Assembly (NCBI RefSeq): GCF_001648775.1
Contig: NZ_LVEJ01000010.1
Coordinates: 372,001 to 436,000, forward strand
Direction: 5' to 3'
Source of the DNA: Pseudomonas fluorescens
Lineage (GTDB): Bacteria; Pseudomonadota; Gammaproteobacteria; Pseudomonadales; Pseudomonadaceae
Length of the DNA stretch: 64,000 nucleotides
A model generated the notes under the pieces. It did not search any database and had not been told where the DNA came from. It was given only the letters and a program-made list of their open reading frames with translations. Both the position numbers and the translations under genes were made by a program. Each line of letters starts with the position of its first letter. The first letter of the stretch is position 1. This document shows, piece after piece, positions 1,028 to 53,219 of the stretch.

Positions 1028-2683
1028 ATGAAGTCGTCAGCCACCGACGAGCCGCGAGCGCCAGGCCAAGCCCCAGTCAAAACCCGCCGTTTCGGCATTT
1101 CACTGGTCTGGATCGTGCCGATTGTCGCGGTGCTGGTGGGCATCTCGCTGGTGGTGCACAACCTCATGCAGGAAGGGCCGACCATCACCGTGACGTTCAA
1201 GACCGGTGACGGTCTCACGGCCAATAAAACCGAAGTCAAATACCGCAACGTCGTCATCGGGCATGTCTCGGATGTCGAACTGGCCGACGATCACAAAAGC
1301 GTGAACGCGACGATCAAACTGGCCAAGCAGGCGGAAAGCTTTACCCGTGAAGATTCGCAGTTCTGGGTGGTGCGGCCACGCATCGGCGCCGGTGGCGTCT
1401 CGGGCATCGATACGCTGCTGTCCGGCGACTACATCGGTGCCGACATTGGCGAGGCGAATAACCGCGCGAAAACCTTCAAAGGCCTGGAGAACCCGCCGCC
1501 CATCACCTATGGCGAACCGGGCAAAACCTTCTCCTTGCACACCTCGGACCTGGGCTCGCTGGACATCGGCTCACCGGTTTACTACCGCAAGATCCCCGTC
1601 GGCCAAGTGGTGTCCTATGCACTGAATCCCGATGGCAAAGGCGTCAACATCGAAGTGTTCATTCATTCACCGAATGACGCCTACGTCACCGAAAACACTC
1701 GTTTCTGGAACGCCAGTGGCGTTGATGTCAGCGTCGGTGCCAATGGTTTCGCGGTAAAAACCGAATCCCTGTCGACCCTGTTGGTGGGCGGCATCGCCTT
1801 CCGCGCACCGGATTACAGCCCCAACGACACGGTCGCGGCGGAAAACAAAGACTTCGAACTGTTCGCCGACCAGACCGCCGCCCTCGCCCCGCCCAACGGC
1901 AAGGCGCAGTACCTGAGCCTGCGTTTCGATCAGGCCTTGCGTGGGCTGAAGGTCGATGCACCGGTGGAATTCCTCGGCGTCGAAATCGGTCGGGTGGTCG
2001 CGGTCAATCTCGACTTCGACGAAGTCAAACGCACGTTCCCGGTCAACGTCGGCATCGTTATTTACCCGCAGCGCCTCGGTCGGGCGCATCAGAAAATGCT
2101 CAAGGCCTTCAATGGCGACGAAAACGACGAAGCCACTGGTGCGCGGCTGCTCGGCACTTTCATCGAAAACGGCCTGCGCGCCCAGGCCCGTAACGGCAAC
2201 CTGCTCACCGGCCAGTTGTACATCGCGCTGGATTTCTACCCGAAAGCGCCGAAAGTCGCGTTCGATCCGACGGCACGTCCGATCAGCATCCCGACCCTCC
2301 CGGGCAGCCTCGAACAATTGCAGGAAAAACTCGAAGCGATGGTCAACAAGATCAACGCATTGCCAGTGGAGCGTATCGCCAGCAACCTCGACAGCAATCT
2401 GGTCGAGCTGCGCAAAGGCCTGAGCCAATTCAACGCGAAGACCTTGCCGGGCGTGCAGAGCACCCTCGCCGACGTCAGCAAGACCTTGCAGTCCGCCAGC
2501 TCGACCTTGGCTGAAGATTCGCCGCAGCGCGAGAAACTCACCGAGACCCTCGATGAGCTCGGACGCATGTCGCGCTCCCTGCGTGAACTGTCGGACTACC
2601 TGGGCCGTCATCCGGAATCGCTGATTCGTGGCCGTCCCGACAACGCGGCACCGCTGGACCTGAAAGGACCGCCACGCAATTGA
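1028..2683 (+). CDS. pqiB: PqiB-like MCE-domain intermembrane lipid transport protein
   Basis: 551 residues. A single N-terminal membrane anchor (about residues 22-47, rich in I/V/L) is followed by a periplasmic part with three MCE (MlaD-like) domains at roughly 50-135, 165-230 and 290-405, and then a helical tail. This is the PqiB/YebT architecture, which forms hexameric tubes between inner and outer membranes for lipid transfer. An in-frame GTG exists at 1001, but GAGGAGGAC at 1015-1023 places the Shine-Dalgarno sequence correctly for the ATG at 1028. The lipoprotein gene downstream begins 17 bp later and is a PqiC homologue. The usual partner PqiA (integral membrane) is not upstream, where an amine oxidase sits instead. 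Confidence 0.88.
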   Translation: MKSSATDEPRAPGQAPVKTRRFGISLVWIVPIVAVLVGISLVVHNLMQEGPTITVTFKTGDGLTANKTEVKYRNVVIGHVSDVELADDHKSVNATIKLAKQAESFTREDSQFWVVRPRIGAGGVSGIDTLLSGDYIGADIGEANNRAKTFKGLENPPPITYGEPGKTFSLHTSDLGSLDIGSPVYYRKIPVGQVVSYALNPDGKGVNIEVFIHSPNDAYVTENTRFWNASGVDVSVGANGFAVKTESLSTLLVGGIAFRAPDYSPNDTVAAENKDFELFADQTAALAPPNGKAQYLSLRFDQALRGLKVDAPVEFLGVEIGRVVAVNLDFDEVKRTFPVNVGIVIYPQRLGRAHQKMLKAFNGDENDEATGARLLGTFIENGLRAQARNGNLLTGQLYIALDFYPKAPKVAFDPTARPISIPTLPGSLEQLQEKLEAMVNKINALPVERIASNLDSNLVELRKGLSQFNAKTLPGVQSTLADVSKTLQSASSTLAEDSPQREKLTETLDELGRMSRSLRELSDYLGRHPESLIRGRPDNAAPLDLKGPPRN

Positions 2684-2699
2684 GCACAGGAGCTAACCC

Positions 2700-3251
2700 A
2701 TGGCTTTACCGCTGAAGATCACCGTGCTCGCTGCGTTCCTGTTGCTGGGTGCCTGCCGCAGCGACCCGATCAGCTTTCACACGCTGACCCCGGTGCAACT
2801 GGGCAGCACTCGCGCCGGCGCGCAAATCCCGATTGAAGGCATCAGTGTGCCGCCGCAAGTCGATCGCCCACAAATCGTCATCCGCCAAGGCAACAGCGGC
2901 CTGGCGATTCTGGAAACGCAATGGTGGGGCGCCAGCCTGGCCGATGAATTACGCAGTGCGCTGGTCGATCAACTGAGCAATACCAGCGGTCGTGGCAATG
3001 TTTCAGTGCGCATCGACGTGCAGCGCTTCGATTCGATTCCGGGGCAGTACGCCTTGATCGATGCGAAGTGGCGTCTGCGCCCGCTCGGCGATACCGACAA
3101 TGGCCTGGTCACCTGTCGCTCGACGCTGCAAACGCCCTCAGGGCCGAGCATCGATGAATTGGTCAGCGCCCAGCAGAACAACGTCAAACGCCTGGCGGCG
3201 CTGATCAGTCAGGCCGCCGGCAATCCGCGCGGCTGTCCGCCCTCCTCCTGA
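2700..3251 (+). CDS. pqiC: PqiC-like outer-membrane lipoprotein (ABC-type transport auxiliary, DUF330)
   Basis: 183 residues with a lipoprotein signal peptide ending in the lipobox LLGAC, so Cys19 or thereabouts is lipidated. The DUF330/PqiC fold is recognisable from the opening SFHTLTPV block and the WWGASLADELRSAL segment. In the Pqi system this lipoprotein caps the PqiB tube at the outer membrane. The gene is 17 bp after pqiB and presumably cotranscribed. Its 3' end overlaps the convergent histidine-kinase gene by 43 bp. Confidence 0.85.
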   Translation: MALPLKITVLAAFLLLGACRSDPISFHTLTPVQLGSTRAGAQIPIEGISVPPQVDRPQIVIRQGNSGLAILETQWWGASLADELRSALVDQLSNTSGRGNVSVRIDVQRFDSIPGQYALIDAKWRLRPLGDTDNGLVTCRSTLQTPSGPSIDELVSAQQNNVKRLAALISQAAGNPRGCPPSS

Positions 3252-4513
3252 GTCAGCGTCACAATAAAACGACAGCCGTTGGGTTCGCGGGTGCTGAGTT
3301 GCACCTGCCAGTCTTGTTGGGTACAGATCCGCTGGACCAATGAGAGCCCCAGGCCGAGCCCTTCTCCGCGCTGTTCATCACCGCGCACGAAGGGTTGGAA
3401 CATGGCATGGCGTCGTTCTTCCGGGATGCCAATGCCGCTGTCTTCGACCACGAAACGGTTGTCGTTAAGGGTCAGCCGCACAAAACCGTGGTCGGTGTAG
3501 TGCCAGGCGTTGCGCAACAGATTGCCCATCACGGACTGCAAAAAAGTCAGGTTAAAGCGCTGCGCGCCGACCTGTTGCGGATCGTAAATAAACTCCAGGC
3601 CCTTTTCACGGATCAAGCAGCCCCAGACTTCAATCTGCGCATCGGCGACGTCCTTCAGTGTGCAGGTGGATTGCACGCTGACTTCTTCAGGCTTGCGCGC
3701 CAGCATCAGAAAGGTTTCGACCAACTGGCGCATTTCGTTGCTGGCCCGAGCAATTCGGCTGACTTGCGCCGTTGAACGCGGGTCGAGTGACGGGTTGGCC
3801 AGCAGCAGCTCGCAGGACGTCGCCAGCACCATCAATGGCGTGCGCAATTCATGACTGACGTCGCTGGTGAACAGTTTCTCCCGCCCCAAAGTGGAGCGCA
3901 GCCGCCCCAGCGTCTGATCGAATGACAGCGCCAGTTCGCCCACTTCATCGGCGGCGTAATCGGGGTGCAAGGGCGGCGCCACTTCGATGAGCTGATCACG
4001 ATGGCGCACTTGTCGGGCCAGACGAATCACCGGGGCCATGACCCGTCGCGCGAGCAAGCGACCGAGGACAACCGCTAGCAGCAGGCTGAGGATGAACCCG
4101 ACAATCACCACGATAAACAGCAAATGCTCGCGTTGTTCGAGGCTTTCCTGGTCGCGCAGCAGCACGTATTTGCGTCCACCGACGGCTTCGACCATGGCAT
4201 AGAAGTCATCACCATGGAATTTGATTTCCTGAAAGCCGATCGGCAGCGCCGCCAATTGCCGGGTCAGTGCCAGTGGTCCTTGCCCGCCCTCGAAAAAGAA
4301 CAACTCGCTTTTTTCCGGTTTATGGCTCCACTGGCTGATGTCGTCCATCGCCAATAACCGGTGCAGACCACCGCTCAGCGTGGTGGTGGTCAATTTGCGC
4401 TCCACCACATGCACGGTCGCGACGATGCCCAATGCAAACACACCGGCGACGAAGGCGCTCATCAGGGCAAATACGATCACGATCCGTTTCGTCAGGCTTT
4501 GCTTGAAATCCAT
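3209..4513 (-). CDS. Sensor histidine kinase without an adjacent response regulator
   Basis: 434 residues from the ATG at 4513; the reading frame runs further upstream to 4660, but the upstream residues do not look like a signal anchor, while MDFKQSLTKRI leads directly into TM1. Order: TM1 about 11-35, periplasmic sensor about 36-130, TM2 about 131-155, HAMP, then HisKA with DVSHELRTPL (phospho-acceptor His221), and a HATPase_c domain with an N box (LLRNAWHYT), G1 (VEDSGIGIP) and G2 (GLGLGLSLV). It autophosphorylates and should pass phosphate to a response regulator. None is encoded next to it or anywhere in the window. It is divergent from the Ais-like phosphatase and ArnT gene, so a role in envelope stress or lipid A control is inferred from position only. 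Confidence 0.85.
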   Translation of the reverse strand: MDFKQSLTKRIVIVFALMSAFVAGVFALGIVATVHVVERKLTTTTLSGGLHRLLAMDDISQWSHKPEKSELFFFEGGQGPLALTRQLAALPIGFQEIKFHGDDFYAMVEAVGGRKYVLLRDQESLEQREHLLFIVVIVGFILSLLLAVVLGRLLARRVMAPVIRLARQVRHRDQLIEVAPPLHPDYAADEVGELALSFDQTLGRLRSTLGREKLFTSDVSHELRTPLMVLATSCELLLANPSLDPRSTAQVSRIARASNEMRQLVETFLMLARKPEEVSVQSTCTLKDVADAQIEVWGCLIREKGLEFIYDPQQVGAQRFNLTFLQSVMGNLLRNAWHYTDHGFVRLTLNDNRFVVEDSGIGIPEERRHAMFQPFVRGDEQRGEGLGLGLSLVQRICTQQDWQVQLSTREPNGCRFIVTLTQEEGGQPRGLPAA

Positions 4514-4689
4514 GCGTTCGGCTGGCTCCTGTGGTGGTTCGGTGTCAGGCAACCATAGCCCAACGCTGCACGGTTGTTCGACAGGACTGAACTTCACCGC
4601 AACGGTGCAGGCCTGGTAAGACCCTGAGGAACAAAAACAGCATTTGAGTTTATTTATCAAATAGCCGCTTTAGTTACCCCGCTCAACTT

Positions 4690-4705
4690 CTGGCAATTTT
4701 TTCAC
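4690..4705 (+). promoter_or_regulatory. Possible ColR-type response-regulator box
   Basis: CTGGCAAT followed by TTTTTCAC. From memory, the Pseudomonas putida ColR consensus is (T/C)(T/C)NA(C/G)NN(T/C)TTTTTCAC. This site matches all fixed positions except one (G for A at position 4). ColR controls lipid A and envelope genes, which suits the genes downstream. Confidence 0.35.
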
Positions 4706-4730
4706 ATGTTCTTCACTGCGCCCCGACGCG

Positions 4731-4749
4731 GCTGAACATAGTGTTCAGC
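4731..4749. promoter_or_regulatory. Perfect inverted repeat, candidate operator
   Basis: GCTGAACA, spacer TAG, TGTTCAGC: 8-bp perfect arms, located 92 bp before the phosphatase start codon. Confidence 0.4.
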
Positions 4750-4840
4750 CTGCATTCAAGTAAACAGTCGTAAAGTTGCTCGCTGCCCAAGCCCTTACGT
4801 TGCACTGAATGAACTATCCGGCGTTTAAAGAGGCAACATT

Positions 4841-5530
4841 GTGGCGCAATTATTTCAGTTAAAACATTTATCCTGGCACCGCCGCACGCCTCGCTTTCGG
4901 TTGTTTATTGCCCTGGCGTGCGTCGTCGCGGTGGCCATTCTGGTCAGCGGCTTTGTCTGGTGGCCACGCTCGCCGACCGACCTCGATCATGCCGGACGCA
5001 ACACCACGGCCGAATGGCTCAATGCCTGGCAGGCAGGTGAAGTGGTCGCTTTGGTGCGACACACCGAACGGTGTGACCGATCGAGCAATACCTGTCTGGG
5101 CCCGGCGGATGGCATCACCGAAGTGGGCAGCACCGCGGCGCAGGTGGTCGGCCAGGGCTTCGTGAAACTGGGCATGCAGCAGGCGATCGTGTTGAGCAGC
5201 CCACTGACCCGCACGGCGCAAACCGCGCATTACATGTTCGGCCACGATGCCAGCAGCGAAGACTGGCTGGCCACGTGTGGCCCGACGCTTCGCGATGAAA
5301 TCGTCGCGCGCAAAGTTGCGCAACAAAATCTGGTGCTGGTCACCCACAGCGGCTGCATCAGTGATTTTGAAAAACAAACCGGCTTCCCACACGCCATTGC
5401 CGCGGAATACGGCAGCACCTTACTTGTACGAATTAATCATCAGAAACAACTTACCGTGCTGGGCATTATCAATACCCCGTTCTGGAAAACTTTAAACGTC
5501 ACACCTGAACATTTAAACAACAGCCACTGA
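4841..5530 (+). CDS. Histidine phosphatase family protein, membrane-anchored (Ais-like)
   Basis: 229 residues with a GTG start preceded by AAAGAGGC. One N-terminal transmembrane segment (about 22-42) anchors the catalytic domain on the periplasmic side. Branch-2-like/phosphoglycerate-mutase-fold motifs are visible: the RHTERC phosphohistidine motif, SSPLTRTAQTA, and the distal LVTHSGC histidine. The family includes Ais/PmrG, which removes the heptose-II phosphate of the LPS core and usually accompanies L-Ara4N genes. Here it directly precedes an arnT gene, supporting the same role. Exact substrate is inferred from context. Confidence 0.75.
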   Translation: MAQLFQLKHLSWHRRTPRFRLFIALACVVAVAILVSGFVWWPRSPTDLDHAGRNTTAEWLNAWQAGEVVALVRHTERCDRSSNTCLGPADGITEVGSTAAQVVGQGFVKLGMQQAIVLSSPLTRTAQTAHYMFGHDASSEDWLATCGPTLRDEIVARKVAQQNLVLVTHSGCISDFEKQTGFPHAIAAEYGSTLLVRINHQKQLTVLGIINTPFWKTLNVTPEHLNNSH

Positions 5531-5577
5531 CTCCAGCGTTTTAGCCCGACACTTTCAATTCGCATCAAGGTCCAGTC

Positions 5578-7293
5578 ATGACGTCCGATAATCCACCGTT
5601 GCGCCACGCTGCCCGTCACTTGCTTCAACCGCCATCGATGATCGAACGCTGGGCAATCCCCGGACTCGTTCTGGCGTTTGTGCTGTTTTATCTGTTGCCG
5701 CTGGTGACCCACGGCCTGTGGATTCCCGATGAAACCCGCTATGGCCAGATCAGCCAGGAAATGCTCCTGAGCGGCAATTGGGTCGCGCCGCACTTCATGG
5801 GCATTCGTTACTTCGAGAAACCGATTGCCGGCTACTGGATGATCGCCATCGGCCAGGCGATTTTCGGTGACAACCTGTTCGGCGTGCGCATCGCTTCGGC
5901 CGTCAGCACTGGGATTAGTGTCTGGCTGGCTTATCTATTAGCCCGCAGGCTCTGGAACAACCCGCGCATCAGTGCGGCCTGTGCCCTGCTGTATATGAGT
6001 TTTGGTTTGGTCGCCGGCCAGGCAGGTTATGCCAACCTCGATCCGCAGTTCACCTTGTGGGTCAATCTGAGTCTGGTGGCGGTGTGGTTTGCCATCGACA
6101 GTTCCACGGCCAAGGCGCGTCTCGGTAGTTGGGCGTTGTTGGGTGCTGCCTGCGGCATGGGCCTGATGACCAAAGGTTTTCTTGCCCTGCTGTTACCAGT
6201 GCTGATCGCCCTGCCCTACATGATCTGGCAGCGGCGTTTCGGCGAACTGCTGCGTTATGGCCCCGTGGCTGTGCTGGCCGCCGCGCTGGTCAGCGTGCCG
6301 TGGGCGCTGGCCGTGCACGTGCGGGAGCCGGACTTCTGGCGATTCTTCTTCTGGCATGAACACATCCGCCGTTTTGCCGCTGGCGATGATGCCCAGCATG
6401 CCCGGCCATGGTGGTTCTACTTGCCGCTGCTGTTCGCTTCGACATTACCGTGGGCGCTGTTGTTGCCGTCGACACTGATCCGCACGTGGCGTGAAAAGCG
6501 CGAAGCGAAAACCGCGTTTCTGGGGTTGTGGTTCCTTTTGCCGCTGATCTTTTTCAGCCTGAGCAGCGGCAAACTGCCGACCTACATCATGCCGTGCCTG
6601 TTTCCGCTGGCCTTGCTGATGGGCTACACCGTGGTGACGTGGCTGCAGCAGCGCAATACGCGGGTGTTGCGCCTCAACGGGGTGATCAACACGCTGCTGG
6701 CCAGCGTGGCCTTGATCGCCCTGATCTATCTGCAGGCGAGCAAAGCAATCTACGAAAACACCGAGATGTTCAGCCTGTCGCTGGTGTTTATCGTGCTGAT
6801 CGGCTGGATTATCGCCAATGCCCTGCAAATCATGCGGCCGCTGACGCTGTGGGCGATGCCGGCACTGGGCATCGGTTTGCTGATTGCGTTGCTGCCTGCG
6901 GCAATGCCAGCGCACATCGTTGCCAGCAAGATGCCTGACCAGTTTATTGCCGAGCATCAACCGGCGCTGAGTGAAACGTCTGCGCTGCTGAGCAATGATC
7001 TGGGCGCGGCATCGGCATTGTCCTGGCGCTTGAAACGCCCTCAGGTGGATCTGTTCAACACGGTCGGCGAGCTTAAATACGGGCTCGAGGATCCGGCGAT
7101 GGCGGCACGCAAAGTCGGCCTCGACGATGTCGGCCAATGGATGACCGACGCGCGCAAAAAAGGCTCTGTGGGGGTGGTCATGCGCGTCAACAGCACACAG
7201 GAAGCCGAGGAAATCGAACGGTTGCCGGCGGATGGCAAGCATTACCAGCGCGGCAATCTGCACATCTACATTTTTGCCCGGCGCCAGCCATGA
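5578..7293 (+). CDS. arnT: Undecaprenyl phosphate-L-Ara4N transferase, first copy (ArnT1)
   Basis: 571 residues, a GT-C integral membrane glycosyltransferase of the GT83/PMT family. It transfers 4-amino-4-deoxy-L-arabinose from undecaprenyl phosphate to lipid A on the periplasmic face. Family features: [17 protein letters not shown] in the first periplasmic loop (catalytic Asp/Glu region), [33 protein letters not shown], about 12 transmembrane helices, and a C-terminal periplasmic domain starting near residue 450. It is clearly paralogous to the arnT inside the complete arn operon at 19060, with the same motifs and almost collinear sequence. This copy has an N-terminal extension of about 20 residues. 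The stop overlaps the next gene by 4 bp. Confidence 0.92.
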
Positions 7294-14023: not shown

Positions 14024-15172
14024 ATGAGTCAGGCGTTTCTCCCCTTCTCTCGTCCGAGTATCGGCGATGAAGAAATTGCAGCCGTAGAACAAGTCTTGCG
14101 TTCCGGCTGGATCACTACCGGGCCGAAAAACCAGGCACTCGAAGAGCAATTCGCGCAGTACGTTGGCTGCCAACATGCGGTGGCACTTTCGTCCGCCACC
14201 GGCGGTATGCACATCGCCTTGTTGGCCTTGGGCATCGGCCCGGGCGACGAAGTCATCACCCCGTCGCAGACCTGGGTGTCGACCGCCAACATGATCTCGC
14301 TGCTCGGCGCCACACCGGTGTTCGTCGACGTCGATCGCGACACCCTGATGACTGACGCCGCTCTCATCGAAGCGGCAATTACTCCGCGAACCAAAGCGAT
14401 CATTCCGGTGCATTACGCCGGCGCTGCGTTCGATCTCGATCCGCTCTACGCGTTGGCCGACAAACACGGCATCGCGGTGATCGAAGACGCCGCCCACGCT
14501 GCCGGCACCCGTTACAAGGGTCGCCACGTTGGTGCGCAAGGCACGGCGATTTTTTCCTTCCACGCGATCAAGAACATGACCTGTGCCGAAGGCGCGATGT
14601 TCGTCACCGACGACGAAGCGCTGGCCAGCCGCGTGCGCATGCTCAAGTTCCATGGTCTGGGCGTTGACGCCTACGATCGCCTGACCGGTGGCCGCAAGCC
14701 GCAGGCGCAAGTGATGGAGCCAGGGTTCAAATATAACCTCGCCGACATCAACGCCGCGATTGCCCTGGTACAGCTTGAGCGCCTGGACGCGATCAACGCC
14801 CGCCGCACTGAACTCGCCGCGGCCTACCGGCAAAAACTCGAAGGCCTGCCGGTGCAACCGCTGGCCGTGCCCGCCTACGCCCAACAGCACGCCTGGCACC
14901 TGTTCATCCTGCGCATCGACAGCGAGCGCTGCGGCATCGACCGCGAAGCCTTCATGAAAGGTTTGCAGGACCAGGGCATCGGCACCGGCATCCATTTCAT
15001 CGCCACCCACCTGCACACCTGGTATCGCCAGCGTGACCCCGACCTGTATCTGCCCAACACCGAATGGAACTCGGCGCGGCTGTGCTCGATTCCGTTGTTC
15101 CCCGACATGAGCGATCAAGACCTTGATCGCGTGGTCGGCGCCATCGCCACCCTTATGGATAAACGCCTGTGA
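14024..15172 (+). CDS. arnB: UDP-L-Ara4O aminotransferase ArnB
   Basis: 382 residues; PLP enzyme of the DegT/DnrJ/EryC1 family that converts UDP-L-Ara4O to UDP-L-Ara4N with glutamate, in the cytoplasm. The opening [18 protein letters not shown], the [10 protein letters not shown] block and the Schiff-base lysine in [14 protein letters not shown] (about residue 184) are diagnostic. The ATG at 14024 follows GATGAGGTG; an in-frame GTG two codons upstream is less likely. First gene of the nine-gene arn operon; overlaps arnC by GTGA. Confidence 0.95.
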
Positions 15173-16191
15173 AAACCTATCCGATCCGCTGTGTGTCGAT
15201 CGTCATCCCGGTCTACAACGAACAGGACAGCCTGCCGGAACTGCTGCGCCGCACCGAAGCGGCCTGCCGCATGCTGCGTCACGACTATGAAATCGTCCTC
15301 GTCGACGACGGCAGCCGTGATGAATCCGCCAATCTTCTTGAAGAAGCCGCGAGCCGTGAAGACAGTCCGTTCGTGGCGGTCATCCTCAATCGCAACTACG
15401 GCCAGCACGCAGCAATCATGGCCGGTTTCGAACAGTGCAAGGGCGATGTCGTCATCACCCTCGACGCCGACCTGCAGAACCCGCCGGAAGAAATTCCACG
15501 GCTGGTCGCCGAAGCCGAAAAGGGTTACGACGTGGTCGGCACCGTGCGCGGCAACCGCCAGGATTCGGCCCTGCGCCGCTACCCGTCGAAGCTGATCAAC
15601 CTCGCCGTGCAGCGCTCTACCGGCGTCGCCATGAGCGATTACGGCTGCATGCTCCGCGCTTACCGCCGCACGATCATCGACGCGATGCTCGCCTGCCGTG
15701 AACGCAGCACGTTCATCCCAATTCTGGCCAACAGCTTCGCCCGCCACACCACGGAAATCGTCGTTGCCCACGCCGAGCGTGAACACGGCGATTCGAAGTA
15801 CAGCCCGATGCGCCTGATCAACCTGATGTTCGACTTGATCACCTGCATGACCACCACGCCGTTGCGCCTGTTGAGCATTGTCGGTTTCACCATGGCCGGT
15901 CTGGGTCTGCTGTTTGCGTTCGCGCTGATCGTCATGCGTCTGGCGTTCGGTTCCGGATGGGCCGGTGACGGCATGTTCGTGCTGTTTGCCGTGCTTTTCG
16001 TGTTCACCGGCGGCCAATTCATCGGCATGGGCCTGCTCGGCGAATACCTGGGGCGCATGTACAGCGACGTGCGCGCCCGCCCGCGTTTCTTCATTGAAAA
16101 AGTCTTGCGCAGCCACGCCGCCGAGCCGGCGCCTGCGGTCACTGTTGACGGTCTCTCTTCTACTTCTACTACCGGTCAGGTTCACTCATGA
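15169..16191 (+). CDS. arnC: Undecaprenyl-phosphate Ara4FN transferase ArnC
   Basis: 340 residues, GTG start overlapping arnB. A GT2 glycosyltransferase domain ([38 protein letters not shown]) is followed by two C-terminal transmembrane helices (about 235-300). It moves 4-deoxy-4-formamido-L-arabinose from UDP onto undecaprenyl phosphate at the cytoplasmic membrane face. Length is typical of the Pseudomonas enzyme. Confidence 0.95.
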
Positions 16192-49430: not shown

Positions 49431-49497
49431 TTCGCGAGCAAGCTCGCTCCCACAGGGGGAATGCATTTCGAAATGTGGGAGCGAGCCTGCTCGCGAA
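49431..49497. repeat. REP doublet, outward type, 21-bp spacer
   Basis: Inverted unit 49431-49453, forward unit 49475-49497, AATGCATTTCGAAAT in the spacer. Confidence 0.9.
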
Positions 49498-49520: not shown

Positions 49521-50444
49521 TCATCTGGCCAAACGCCGCAACCCAAACAACATCCCCCCCGCCCCCAACAACATCACCGCCAGAAACACCGGATAGGAAA
49601 CCCACCACGGCGTCCCCGCCGTCATCATGCTGAATTCCGACATCCCGCCAATACTCGCAATCAGGTTCAACGGCAGAAACACCACGTTGATCAACGTCAG
49701 CTTGCGCAGCAGGTTGTTCATGCTGTTGTTCATCAGGTTGCCGCGCGCATCGATCAGCCCGGAAAACACCGTGGAGTAGATTTCCGCCTGCTTGTAGCAC
49801 TGGTTGTTTTCGATGATCAAGTCGTCGATCAGGCCGAGCGCTTCACTGCCGAAGTGTTGTTTTTCCGCGTGATTGCGCAGCCGCGTCAGCACCGCGCCGT
49901 TGCTGTGCAGGGCGTTGATGTAATAGATCAGGCTTTCACTGAGGTTGAACATCTGGATCAGATGCTGGTTCTGCATCGAGGCGTTGAATTTCTGCTGCAA
50001 CTCGCGGGCGACCAGTTTGATCACCTTCAAGTGCCCGAGGTAGTGATGGATGTTGTTGAACAACAGGTCGAGCAGCACATCCAGTGGCGTATTTAACGCC
50101 TGACGTGTGCCGAGGCCGTGCAACGGCGTGTCATCGGTGGCAATCACCAACAGTTGTCCCGGGGAGAACAACAAACCACACGACGACACTTCAAACGCCA
50201 GGCTGCCAGCCCCGGAATAGTTTTCCGGACGCTTCCAGATCAGAAACAGGTGATCGGGATGAAACTCGATCCGCGAGACCTCATCCGGATCCAACGCCGA
50301 GGCCAGCGCGTGTTCATCGACCTTGAAATGGCTGTGCAGCAAGTCACGCTCGGCGGCGTCGGGATTGCTGAACAGCATCACCTCGGCGTCCAGTCGCTCA
50401 ACCCGCTGCAAGGCGCCGTGGCTCAATGCGAAGCGACTGATCAT
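49521..50444 (-). CDS. CorA/ZntB-like divalent cation transporter with GMS signature
   Basis: 307 residues: large N-terminal cytoplasmic domain with long helices (about 1-240) and two C-terminal transmembrane helices (about 248-270 and 281-301). This is the CorA architecture for a pentameric Mg2+/Co2+ or Zn2+ channel. The loop between the helices, canonically GMN, is GGMSEF here, so the selectivity-filter Asn is Ser. The gene begins 7 bp after the RimK-family ligase stop, on the same strand, so the two are probably one operon. Confidence 0.85.
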   Translation of the reverse strand: MISRFALSHGALQRVERLDAEVMLFSNPDAAERDLLHSHFKVDEHALASALDPDEVSRIEFHPDHLFLIWKRPENYSGAGSLAFEVSSCGLLFSPGQLLVIATDDTPLHGLGTRQALNTPLDVLLDLLFNNIHHYLGHLKVIKLVARELQQKFNASMQNQHLIQMFNLSESLIYYINALHSNGAVLTRLRNHAEKQHFGSEALGLIDDLIIENNQCYKQAEIYSTVFSGLIDARGNLMNNSMNNLLRKLTLINVVFLPLNLIASIGGMSEFSMMTAGTPWWVSYPVFLAVMLLGAGGMLFGLRRLAR

Positions 50445-50451
50445 CGGCGCA

Positions 50452-52026
50452 TCACCACGCCTGGCCGCGACGTTTGAGCTCCAGGCGCCGTACGAACTCT
50501 TCGAGCACCAGTGAATACAGGTCGTCCTGTAAATAAGCGTCTTCGATGCCGGCGTCGAGGTTAGGGTTGTCGTTGACTTCGATCACCACGACTTTGTCGC
50601 CGGCCTGTTTCAGGTCGACGCCGTAGAGGCCGTCGCCAATCAGGTTGGCGGTTTTCACCGCCAACTCGACCACCGCGCGCGGTGCTTCATGGATCGCCAG
50701 CGTGCGGCATTCGCCGTTGACGTCCTGGCCTTTGGCTTTGTGGTTGTAGATCTGCCAATGGCCCTTGGACATGAAGTACTGACAGGCGAAGATCGGTTTG
50801 CGATTGAGCACACCAATGCGCCAGTCGTATTCGGTGTAGAAGAACTCCTGCGCCAGCAGCAACACCGAGTGCTCGAACAGTTCGGCAGTAGCCTCAAGCA
50901 ACGCTTGCTGGCTTTCGACCTTGATCACCCCGCGCGAGAAGCAGCCATCGGGAATCTTCAGCACCAACGGAAAACCGAGGCGTTCGCCGACCCGCTCGAA
51001 GTCTTCGGGTCGCTCCTTGTAGAGAATTTCGGTGGCGGGCATGCCCAGTTGATGGCTGTTGAGCAGATCGGTCAGATAGACCTTGTTGGTGCAGCGCAGA
51101 ATCGACGTCGGATCATCCATCACCACCAGCCCTTCACTTTCGGCCTTCTTGGCGAATCGGTAAGTGTGGTTGTCGACGCTGGTGGTTTCGCGGATCAGCA
51201 AACCGTCGTACTCGGCCAGCCGCGCGTAATCCTTGCGCTCGATCAGCTCGACATCGATGCCCATGGTTTTGCCGACCCGGACGAAATTCGCCAGGGCTTT
51301 GGCGTTGGACGGCGGCAACGTTTCCTGCGGATCGTGCAGGATCGCCAGGTCATAGCGGGCAACTTGCGGCGAGCGCGGCGCCCGCCAGATTTTACGGCTG
51401 AAGCCATCCAGCGCGTTGGCGAACTGATCTTCCTGATCATCGCGCAACTTGTGCAAAGTGCCAGACTTTACCCCTTCGATGTGCCAACCGTTAGTTCGGC
51501 GAAACTCAACTAACAAAATCGGACACGGGAATAACTCAAACAACTGCCGGGCCAGATCCTGTAACGGCTCGATATGTGTTCGGCCGAAATACAGGGTCAG
51601 GGTAAAGCCTTCGGTGTCGCTGTAAAGATGATGGCTGAGCGCCTTTTCGAGGGTTTTATCCAGATCGTCGAGGGCCAGCCCGTAGAGTGATTTTCGCGTC
51701 AGCTCGCTGATCGTCCGCACCGATGGAATCACCTTGTGACCACGGGCTTCCGCCAGCAGCGAGCAGTAATAGCCGTGGCCCAGGTACTTGTAGCTGCGGC
51801 ACAGGTTGATCACCTGCACGCGCTTGCCCGGCTCGGTTTCGCGGGTCTGCTCCAGGTATTCCTGTGCAGTGATGATGCCCTCGCTGGGAAAATACGAGGC
51901 CCAGTCTTCCTTGCGCTCGACAATGATCAGCACTTGACTGGAAGTTCTAGTTGCTGAATTTAAATAAGTTGCCGCCGGCAAACTTTGCTCGGATACTTCG
52001 CGCCAATGACCCTGTACCGCTGACAT
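50452..52026 (-). CDS. RimK-family ATP-grasp ligase with extra N-terminal domain
   Basis: 524 residues from the ATG at 52026. An N-terminal RimK-like extension (about 1-215: QVLIIVERKEDWASYFPSEG, YYCSLLAEARGHKVIPS) precedes the ATP-grasp core (about 290-510). Core motifs: KVYLTDLL, GFPLVLKIPDGCFSRGVIKV (nucleotide loop), QEFFYTEYDWRIGVLN, and the metal-binding NDNPNLDAGIEDAYL. ATP-grasp ligases of this type join an amino acid or peptide to a carboxylate; RimK itself adds Glu to ribosomal protein S6. The acceptor here is unknown. Divergent, 92 bp apart, from a GNAT-C39 peptidase fusion. Confidence 0.88.
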   Translation of the reverse strand: MSAVQGHWREVSEQSLPAATYLNSATRTSSQVLIIVERKEDWASYFPSEGIITAQEYLEQTRETEPGKRVQVINLCRSYKYLGHGYYCSLLAEARGHKVIPSVRTISELTRKSLYGLALDDLDKTLEKALSHHLYSDTEGFTLTLYFGRTHIEPLQDLARQLFELFPCPILLVEFRRTNGWHIEGVKSGTLHKLRDDQEDQFANALDGFSRKIWRAPRSPQVARYDLAILHDPQETLPPSNAKALANFVRVGKTMGIDVELIERKDYARLAEYDGLLIRETTSVDNHTYRFAKKAESEGLVVMDDPTSILRCTNKVYLTDLLNSHQLGMPATEILYKERPEDFERVGERLGFPLVLKIPDGCFSRGVIKVESQQALLEATAELFEHSVLLLAQEFFYTEYDWRIGVLNRKPIFACQYFMSKGHWQIYNHKAKGQDVNGECRTLAIHEAPRAVVELAVKTANLIGDGLYGVDLKQAGDKVVVIEVNDNPNLDAGIEDAYLQDDLYSLVLEEFVRRLELKRRGQAW

Positions 52027-52118
52027 AGAGATTGATCCGTTGGAGAACAAGACCTTTTCTATTAAGCACGAAGTTTTTCGAAAGTCTCGTTTCGTTACGC
52101 AACTTTTACGGTGGTCAT

Positions 52119-53219
52119 ATGAGTGCTGTTTTTCGCCCGGCAACAGTTGAAGATTTGCCAGCGCTGCTGGCATTGGAAATGCAATGTTTCACCAGCGACC
52201 GGCTGACCAGTCGCAGCTTCCAGTGGATGATTACCCGCGCACACGGGCAGTTGCTGGTGGCAGAGCGCGAGGGCCATTTGCTCGGTTACGCCCTGGTGTT
52301 GTTTCACCGTGGTACCTCGCTGGCACGCCTGTATTCCATCGCGATTGCCGCTGATGCGCGGGGCGAAGGCCTGGGCAAGCACTTGCTGCAACGGATCGAA
52401 GCGATCGCTCTGCAACACGATTGCGCCTACCTGCGCCTCGAGGTGCGCACCGACAACCCTGCAGCGATTGCCTTGTATGAACGCAACGGTTATCGGCGTT
52501 TTGCCTTGATTCACGATTACTACGAAGACCATGCCGATGCGCTGCGTCTGGAGAAACGCATTCTTCAGCACCGCGATTCGCGCAGTATCAAGGTGCCTTA
52601 TTACCGGCAAACCACCGATTTCACCTGCGGCCCGGCTTGCCTGTTGATGGCCATGGGCGCGTTGCAGGCACAGCGGTTACTGGAGCGTCGCGAAGAATTG
52701 CAGATCTGGCGCGAAGCGACCACGGTGTTCATGACCGCCGGCCATGGCGGCTGCAGCCCGCAGGGTTTGGCGCTGGCCGCATGGCGCAGAGGTTTTCGCG
52801 TGAGGTTGCAGTTGAGTCTGGCAGGCCCGTTGTTTCTCGACGGGGTGCGCGATGCGCATAAAAAAGACGTCATGCGCCTGGTCCATGAGGAGTTCATGAC
52901 GCAGTTGGCCGAGACCGACGTCGAGCAGTTGCTTGGCACATCGCTCGACCTGCCGCGCTTGCTCGATGCGGGCGGACAACCGCTGGTGCTGATCAGCAGT
53001 TATCGCCTGACCCGATCGAAGTCCCCGCACTGGGTGATGGTGACCGATTGCGACGAGGACTTTGTTTATCTGCATGACCCGGATGTCGATCACAGCCAGC
53101 ACCGACAGCCGATGGACTGCCAGCATGTGCCGGTCAGTCATGGCGAGTTCGAGAAAATGTGTCGGTTTGGCCGGGGTAAGTTGCGCGCTGCGGTGGTGCT
53201 GTTTGCCCGCAATGGCTAA
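52119..53219 (+). CDS. GNAT acetyltransferase fused to a C39-like peptidase
   Basis: 366 residues. Residues about 1-150 are a GNAT domain like RimI (RLYSIAIAADARGEGLGKHLL with the acetyl-CoA loop, ALYERNGYRRF). Residues about 165-366 are a C39-like cysteine peptidase: catalytic Cys in DFTCGPACLLMAM (about 183), His in SPHWVMVTD and Asp in YLHDPDVDH. C39 peptidases cleave after double-glycine leaders of peptides. The combined protein could trim and acetylate the same peptide. The gene is divergent from the RimK-family ligase, suggesting one regulated module. Confidence 0.88.
   Translation: MSAVFRPATVEDLPALLALEMQCFTSDRLTSRSFQWMITRAHGQLLVAEREGHLLGYALVLFHRGTSLARLYSIAIAADARGEGLGKHLLQRIEAIALQHDCAYLRLEVRTDNPAAIALYERNGYRRFALIHDYYEDHADALRLEKRILQHRDSRSIKVPYYRQTTDFTCGPACLLMAMGALQAQRLLERREELQIWREATTVFMTAGHGGCSPQGLALAAWRRGFRVRLQLSLAGPLFLDGVRDAHKKDVMRLVHEEFMTQLAETDVEQLLGTSLDLPRLLDAGGQPLVLISSYRLTRSKSPHWVMVTDCDEDFVYLHDPDVDHSQHRQPMDCQHVPVSHGEFEKMCRFGRGKLRAAVVLFARNG

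Follow-up and report, generated by a model that had tools for sequence, protein, structure and literature searches.

What do three tightly packed genes of Pseudomonas fluorescens do together when they encode a RimK-type ligase, an acetyltransferase fused to a papain-like domain, and a CorA-like membrane protein? The genes lie in a 64,000-nucleotide stretch (positions 372,001–436,000 of contig NZ_LVEJ01000010.1, assembly GCF_001648775.1), which is called the window here. The ligase gene (50452–52026, minus strand; 524 residues from the ATG) combines an RLAN region (PF14401) with a RimK-type ATP-grasp domain (PF08443). Divergent from it across 92 base pairs (bp; 52027–52118), a gene for a 366-residue protein (52119–53219, plus strand) joins a RimI-like GNAT to a DUF3335 papain/C39-like domain, and 7 bp downstream of the ligase (50445–50451) lies the gene for the 307-residue CorA-like protein (PF01544; 49521–50444, minus strand). 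The gene make-up given in an initial annotation of the window is thereby confirmed by coordinates and Pfam matches. In its nearest named relatives, P. viridiflava (isolate p13.D5), P. fluorescens and P. koreensis, the ligase is 96% identical. Our answer, held tentatively at a probability of about 0.42, is that the genes form a dedicated module for modifying a peptide or protein tail, consisting of the ligase, its own acetyltransferase and a trimming peptidase, with the substrate encoded elsewhere.

The linkage of the genes was followed through 349 genomes of the phylum (loci and genomes are cited by L and G numbers). RLAN was found in 62 genomes and DUF3335 in 52, with both domains in 51, RLAN alone in 11 and DUF3335 alone in 1, and 49 of the 55 DUF3335 matches lie no more than 6 kb from an RLAN match. 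All 11 RLAN genomes lacking DUF3335 keep a related GNAT beside the ligase. Outside the genus Pseudomonas, 60 ligase loci were compared, taken from 65 ligase matches after leaving out the window itself, G055, G071, G123 and G197; by tblastn a GNAT is nearby at 58 of them, DUF3335 at 44, DUF2817 at 14, DUF155 at 13 and CorA at none. One of the two loci scored as lacking a GNAT (L076) sits on a contig that begins inside the DUF3335 gene; the other is L109, whose genome carries GNAT–DUF3335 on another contig. GNAT is a steadier partner of the ligase than DUF3335. Gene order varies between divergent, co-directional with the GNAT first, and ligase-first, and the content is kept while the arrangement changes among divergent, co-directional and fused forms; at L092 (8553–10532) a GNAT is fused to the N-terminus of the RLAN ligase itself and a separate, convergent GNAT–DUF3335 gene is also present. 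Adjacency is firmer evidence here than the presence counts, whose Fisher values ignore phylogeny and are descriptive.

A sample of 149 Pseudomonas genomes gave the same picture at closer range. The ligase occurs in 65 of them and DUF3335 in 57, every one of the latter carrying the ligase within 3 kb. A CorA orthologue (E-value, E ≤ 1e-60) occurs in 56, again always with the ligase and within 2.5 kb of it, so that nine ligase genomes are without CorA and eight without DUF3335; at this threshold G399, with a partial match (L190), was scored as lacking CorA and G359, with a split match (L159), as having it. At L197 the orientation of the GNAT–DUF3335 gene has changed and CorA still stands behind the ligase. 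Two of the genus ligases (G393 and G464) carry an in-frame stop. The initial annotation had treated the three genes as a unit and named separation of ligase and fusion in most genomes as a finding that would speak against it. They are not so separated: DUF3335 accompanies the ligase in 51 of 52 genomes across the phylum and in 57 of 57 in the genus, and a GNAT stands at 58 of the 60 outside loci. The inclusion of CorA held within the genus (56 of 56 with the ligase) and failed outside it (0 of 60 loci); the wider system does not include CorA.

When the three genes on each side of the ligase were catalogued at the 53 loci with a ligase reading frame (window included; the simple gene caller missed or miscalled some ligases), GNAT with or without DUF3335 appeared 47 times, DUF2817 14 times, DUF155 12 times and the Na/Ca exchanger family PF01699 4 times, all others at most 3 times. 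No further biosynthetic family was recognised among these flanking genes, of which only some clusters were annotated. Within 6 kb of a ligase or DUF3335 lie 15 of 57 full-length DUF2817 matches, short weak ones having been left out, and 14 of 36 DUF155 matches lie near either gene. The exchanger gene (tested by Pfam on L068) stands within three genes of the ligase at L067, L068, L098 and L099, in two lineages; together with CorA it makes two cation-transporter families seen beside RLAN ligases. Separately, the stretch fetched for L104 holds no RLAN ligase but encodes two DUF3335 proteins whose GNAT parts are degenerate (5133–6194 and 14189–15397), its genome (G197) holding a linked ligase–DUF3335 pair elsewhere, and Methanosarcina acetivorans, a control genome, has DUF3335 with RLAN unmatched.

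A further set of named loci was made up of the 80 best among 584 or more related stretches and leans towards close relatives. GNAT is present in 75 of these and DUF3335 in 41, with GNAT standing without DUF3335 at the loci fetched from Dyella, Rhodanobacter and Lysobacter; two of the loci (L261 and L271) begin too close to the locus end for GNAT to be judged. DUF2817 occurs in 8, placed between GNAT–DUF3335 and the ligase (for example in Methylophaga, HdN1 and Methylomicrobium), and DUF155 in 2 (L266, confirmed by Pfam, and L267). On a GNAT tree of 109 rows, thinned from 176 at more than 80% likeness and with bootstrap values that had not settled, the fused state changes 6 times, at least 3 of the changes being forced by well-supported branches; DUF3335 has therefore been gained or lost repeatedly, whereas GNAT and ligase stayed. 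Plasmids gave 11 records matching the ligase at E 1e-40, 7 of them from Azospirillum. A phage or mobile origin was considered and set aside, there being no match among 50,697 phage records at E 1e-20. IMG/VR contained two relatives (L127, 5001–5867, and L128) in which an ATP-grasp protein is 42% identical to the C-terminal half of the ligase only; neither Pfam nor the RLAN region used as a query at E 1 detected RLAN in L127. At one locus, L276 of Marinobacterium rhizophilum (1660–5838), canonical rimK adjoins GNAT–DUF3335, and upstream lie another stretch resembling the ligase and a short fragment resembling DUF3335.

The ligase belongs to the RLAN ligases by both of its domains: residues 54–205 match RLAN with E 2.8e-53 (180 bits, gathering threshold 25) and residues 314–491 match the RimK ATP-grasp family with 38 bits against a cut-off of 21. 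Rimk_N (PF18030) is absent from the 7 Pfam families matched at E 0.1. Residues K315, K357, R403, D471, E483 and N485 are invariant in all 30 aligned sequences, and five of these (K315, K357, D471, E483 and N485), which we take to be the nucleotide- and metal-binding residues of an ATP-grasp ligase, would make the enzyme an active one. In RimK of P. aeruginosa, R64, R189 and N262 are described as touching the glutamate chain (PMC10092738); in our alignment they correspond to R279, R403 and N485 of the ligase, all three invariant over the same 30 sequences. As the catalytic residues and these glutamate-contact positions are kept, we infer that the enzyme ligates an amino acid, probably an acidic one, to a carboxyl end.

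The RLAN region was modelled over residues 28–222 (51361–51945, minus strand; predicted local distance difference test, pLDDT, 83.8). Foldseek ranks 1 to 28 are all ATP-grasp enzymes and unrelated hits appear from rank 29, with a best E of 1.9e-3 and no row below 0.001. VIA-align gave ArgX a Z score of 10.9 (167 aligned residues, root-mean-square deviation, rmsd, 3.8), LysX about 10, and RimK of E. coli and Pseudomonas 8.7–9.7, all 50 displayed rows being the same kinds of enzyme. The top Foldseek rows, and the kinases and synapsin in the VIA-align list, are presumed by us to have ATP-grasp folds. The 195-residue model spans whole ATP-grasp chains of 241–338 residues, as though the ATP-binding part were gone. 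Internal duplication was unsupported by sequence, hhalign of RLAN with the ATP-grasp half giving a probability of 1.6% and none of the 10 PDB sequences listed for the RLAN profile at E 10 being an ATP-grasp enzyme. Because the sequence profiles give no support and the likeness comes from a predicted model, an ATP-grasp-like fold missing its ATP-binding subdomain is a lead, not a result.

In the divergent protein, residues 16–125 match Acetyltransf_1 and residues 159–361 match PF11814, the "Peptidase_C39 like family", with E 2.1e-88 (295.6 bits, gathering threshold 25), which places the domain in DUF3335. The catalytic set is conserved over 29 sequences including that of the window, with Q164, C170 and H304 in all 29 and position 320 occupied by Asp in 24 and Glu in 5; the intact Cys/His/Asp set reported initially is thus borne out. 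The assignment to C39 has to be narrowed to C39-like, since the double-glycine leader peptidase family PF03412 scores 15.1 bits, under its cut-off of 22, although the fold is alike. The model of the domain (residues 156–366, 52584–53216, plus strand; pLDDT 88.6) has a papain/C39-like fold, matching PeiR with Z 15.4 (147 aligned, rmsd 2.7), the ComA peptidase with Z 14.7 (136 aligned, rmsd 2.5) and phytochelatin synthase with Z 14.3 (160 aligned, rmsd 3.3). Rows within about 1 Z are to be read as tied, which leaves likeness to peptidase and to transpeptidase on a par.

A search of PDB with the GNAT profile placed it closest to the archaeal and eukaryotic N-terminal acetyltransferases and RimI (Ard1/Naa10/RimI), a kind that suggests an α-amino acceptor on a peptide or protein. 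Against the RimI equivalog TIGR01575 the fusion protein scores 83.8 bits in the protein scan and 86.7 in the genome search (cut-off 86.4), ranking second among 28 RimI matches in the genome behind canonical rimI, which scores 142.8 bits and is located elsewhere. Canonical rimK, with Rimk_N, sits on another contig. With both of these encoded elsewhere, neither module gene is by default a housekeeping ribosome modifier.

The CorA-like protein scores 112.1 bits against PF01544 (cut-off 27) and misses the cut-off of the magnesium/cobalt CorA equivalog TIGR00383 (70.8 bits vs 200.75). The motif GMN, which we take to be the CorA signature, is replaced by GGMSE in 35 of 54 displayed rows, the other 19 having displayed another stretch and been left uncounted. 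Within the 92-bp divergent region, an alignment of 57 sequences (56 of the genus or labelled Pseudomonas, one labelled Pantoea) revealed a conserved block of 20 bp (52084–52103, minus strand). Even with 3 mismatches allowed, this block is the only copy that the genome contains, a backward control having given 2 matches, and a regulon reading was therefore dropped, no co-regulated substrate gene having been found by this route.

As we picture the module, the RimK-type ligase would spend ATP on adding an amino acid, probably an acidic one, to a peptide or protein at its carboxyl end, and the RimI-like GNAT would acetylate that molecule at an α-amino end. The papain-like domain, which most members have and some lack, may hydrolyse the product or trim the acetylated end, so that writer and eraser would be kept together as in RimK/RimB, and in Pseudomonas the CorA-like protein encoded behind the ligase might anchor or regulate it. 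Gene content, linkage and the conservation of catalytic residues are observed directly; the chemistry of the three enzymes is read here from their families, and that they share a substrate, what it is, in which order the steps run and what CorA does are conjecture. The order suggested in the initial annotation, cleavage followed by extension and capping, is unsupported. A more elaborate version, which we regard as improbable, makes RLAN a decayed ATP-grasp copy that would dock the acceptor while the ligase extends one end of a protein; the RimI paralogue and its ACTMAP-like protease would acetylate the other end and remove the acetylated residue, with CorA in Pseudomonas and DUF155 elsewhere holding the complex at the membrane.

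Several observations weigh against a tail-modification module. The ligase falls below the RimK family cut-off (TIGR00768, 78.3 bits vs 143.4), although it may still work like RimK, and of the other RimK positions S68 aligns with a variable one (Ser in 12 of 30) while S7, R8 and S14 fall outside the alignment. No GNAT was found in loci L245, L270 and L274, and a P. aeruginosa plasmid ligase (L284, 3914–5503) has no GNAT, DUF3335 or CorA nearby, there being no GNAT in 9.4 kb; in genome G193 the GNAT–DUF3335 gene (L101) is on a different contig from the ligase (L109). The additional partners are mostly unlinked, DUF2817 in 42 of 57 matches and DUF155 in 22 of 36, and they occur in ligase-free genomes (20 of 46 with DUF2817, 15 of 36 with DUF155). 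No substrate gene is linked to the module, literature searches found no activity test on an RLAN ligase, DUF3335 or the module GNAT, and a metabolite would serve nearly as well as substrate.

That last alternative, rather unlikely in our estimate, has the ligase and GNAT building an N-acetylated short peptide (an osmolyte, cofactor or storage compound) that the peptidases recycle. N-Acetylglutaminylglutamine synthesis likewise employs a GNAT and an ATP-grasp enzyme in one pathway, and the module GNAT matches its synthetase model TIGR03103, though weakly (27.9 bits vs a cut-off of 569). The DUF2817 protein of L266 similarly has a weak match to the AstE/AspA deacylases (25.2 bits), R2K ATP-grasp ligases with linked GNATs have been proposed to yield capped peptide products (PMC4431377), and the absence of a linked protein substrate fits as well. 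The GNAT, however, is nearer to protein N-terminal acetyltransferases, and the partly annotated flanks of the 53 loci contribute nothing further that is recognisably biosynthetic. Action of the RimI-like and RimK-like paralogues on the end of a ribosomal protein, as a second system beside canonical RimI/RimK, appears doubtful. Both enzymes are related to ribosome modifiers, and DUF155 is the RMND1 family, which has a role in mitochondrial translation; but the canonical genes are present and unlinked in this genome, and the adjacency of rimK to GNAT–DUF3335 was confirmed only in M. rhizophilum, a locus from the same family (L278) having a truncated ligase-like stretch in that place.

We consider it most improbable that the locus matures a ribosomally synthesized and post-translationally modified peptide, with the C39-like domain cutting a Gly-Gly leader and the ligase modifying the core. 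The fold is compatible with this, the PCAT1 and ComA peptidase domains matching at Z about 14.7. C39 peptidases are described as fused to a peptide ATP-binding cassette (ABC) transporter (PMC10318531), whereas DUF3335 is joined to a GNAT, and none of the six neighbour genes scanned is an ABC transporter, one of them having matched nothing. The GNAT also persists where DUF3335 is missing. Leader cleavage, which the initial annotation had entertained, was rejected as the primary reading because the C39 cut-off is missed and the gaps of 92 and 7 bp are too short to hold a precursor gene. It would be equally surprising if the genes were neighbours acting in unrelated pathways: a few ligases do stand without GNAT or DUF3335, but the counts of presence and adjacency, and content that stays while arrangement differs, argue otherwise. 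Anti-phage defence was also tried and discarded, none of the three proteins matching a PADLOC model at E 0.01.

If the tail-modification reading is right, the module would be a second widespread bacterial tail-rewriting system beside RimK/RimB, and would pair tail ligation with N-terminal acetylation, both of which are poorly understood in bacteria. Its tight linkage across lineages provides a small gene set for direct substrate discovery in non-pathogenic Pseudomonas, and confirmation of the RLAN model would let an "uncharacterised domain" be recognised as a pseudo-enzyme partner.

The remainder of the window offers some context. A 22-bp repeat, GTGGGAGCGAGCYTGCTCGCGA, occurs at 27 sites between 24995 and 63801 as 13 close inverted pairs and one single copy (0.00 expected in shuffles) and resembles the REP/REPIN elements of Pseudomonas; one pair (49432–49496) lies directly downstream of the CorA gene. 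Nearby are genes for Ku, of bacterial end-joining (PF02735; 54987–55853, plus strand), and for an aspartyl/asparaginyl β-hydroxylase family protein (PF05118; 55998–56909, minus strand).

The module has likenesses to several systems. Iyer et al. (2009) and the Pfam text for RLAN reportedly describe RLAN ligases as neighbours of a fusion between a GNAT and a papain-like protease, so the partnership was probably predicted already. In print, DUF3335 (PF11814) is described as often fused to GNAT, and peptide ligation or acetylation is suggested with reference to Iyer 2009 (PMC10318531), so the module is not "undescribed", as it was at first called. Added here are the ranking of partners, the dependence of CorA on the ligase within the genus, the DUF2817 and DUF155 partners and the ATP-grasp-like model of RLAN. 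RimK/RimB (rimABK) of Pseudomonas likewise keeps a RimK-type ATP-grasp ligase with a peptidase as writer and eraser, a precedent to which a RimBK hybrid can be added (PMC11957791). The module differs in its N-terminal RLAN region in place of a detectable Rimk_N, in its GNAT, and in a peptidase that is papain-like where RimB is retropepsin-like; no retropepsin-like RimB was found, either within the trio itself or in the six neighbouring genes that were scanned. The rloABC operon of P. aeruginosa also combines an ATP-grasp protein, a protease and a membrane protein, but there the membrane protein, RloB, is an inactive transglutaminase and the protease, RloA, is secreted and retropepsin-like, and the passages describing the operon mention no GNAT gene (PMC12239564). 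ACTMAP, which takes N-acetyl-methionine off actin, and NAA80 provide a possible analogy for the fusion, being a cysteine protease that acts on an N-acetylated end and an N-terminal acetyltransferase (PMC13367750); they are eukaryotic, separate and ligase-free, whereas in the module the corresponding activities would be joined in one protein and encoded beside a ligase.

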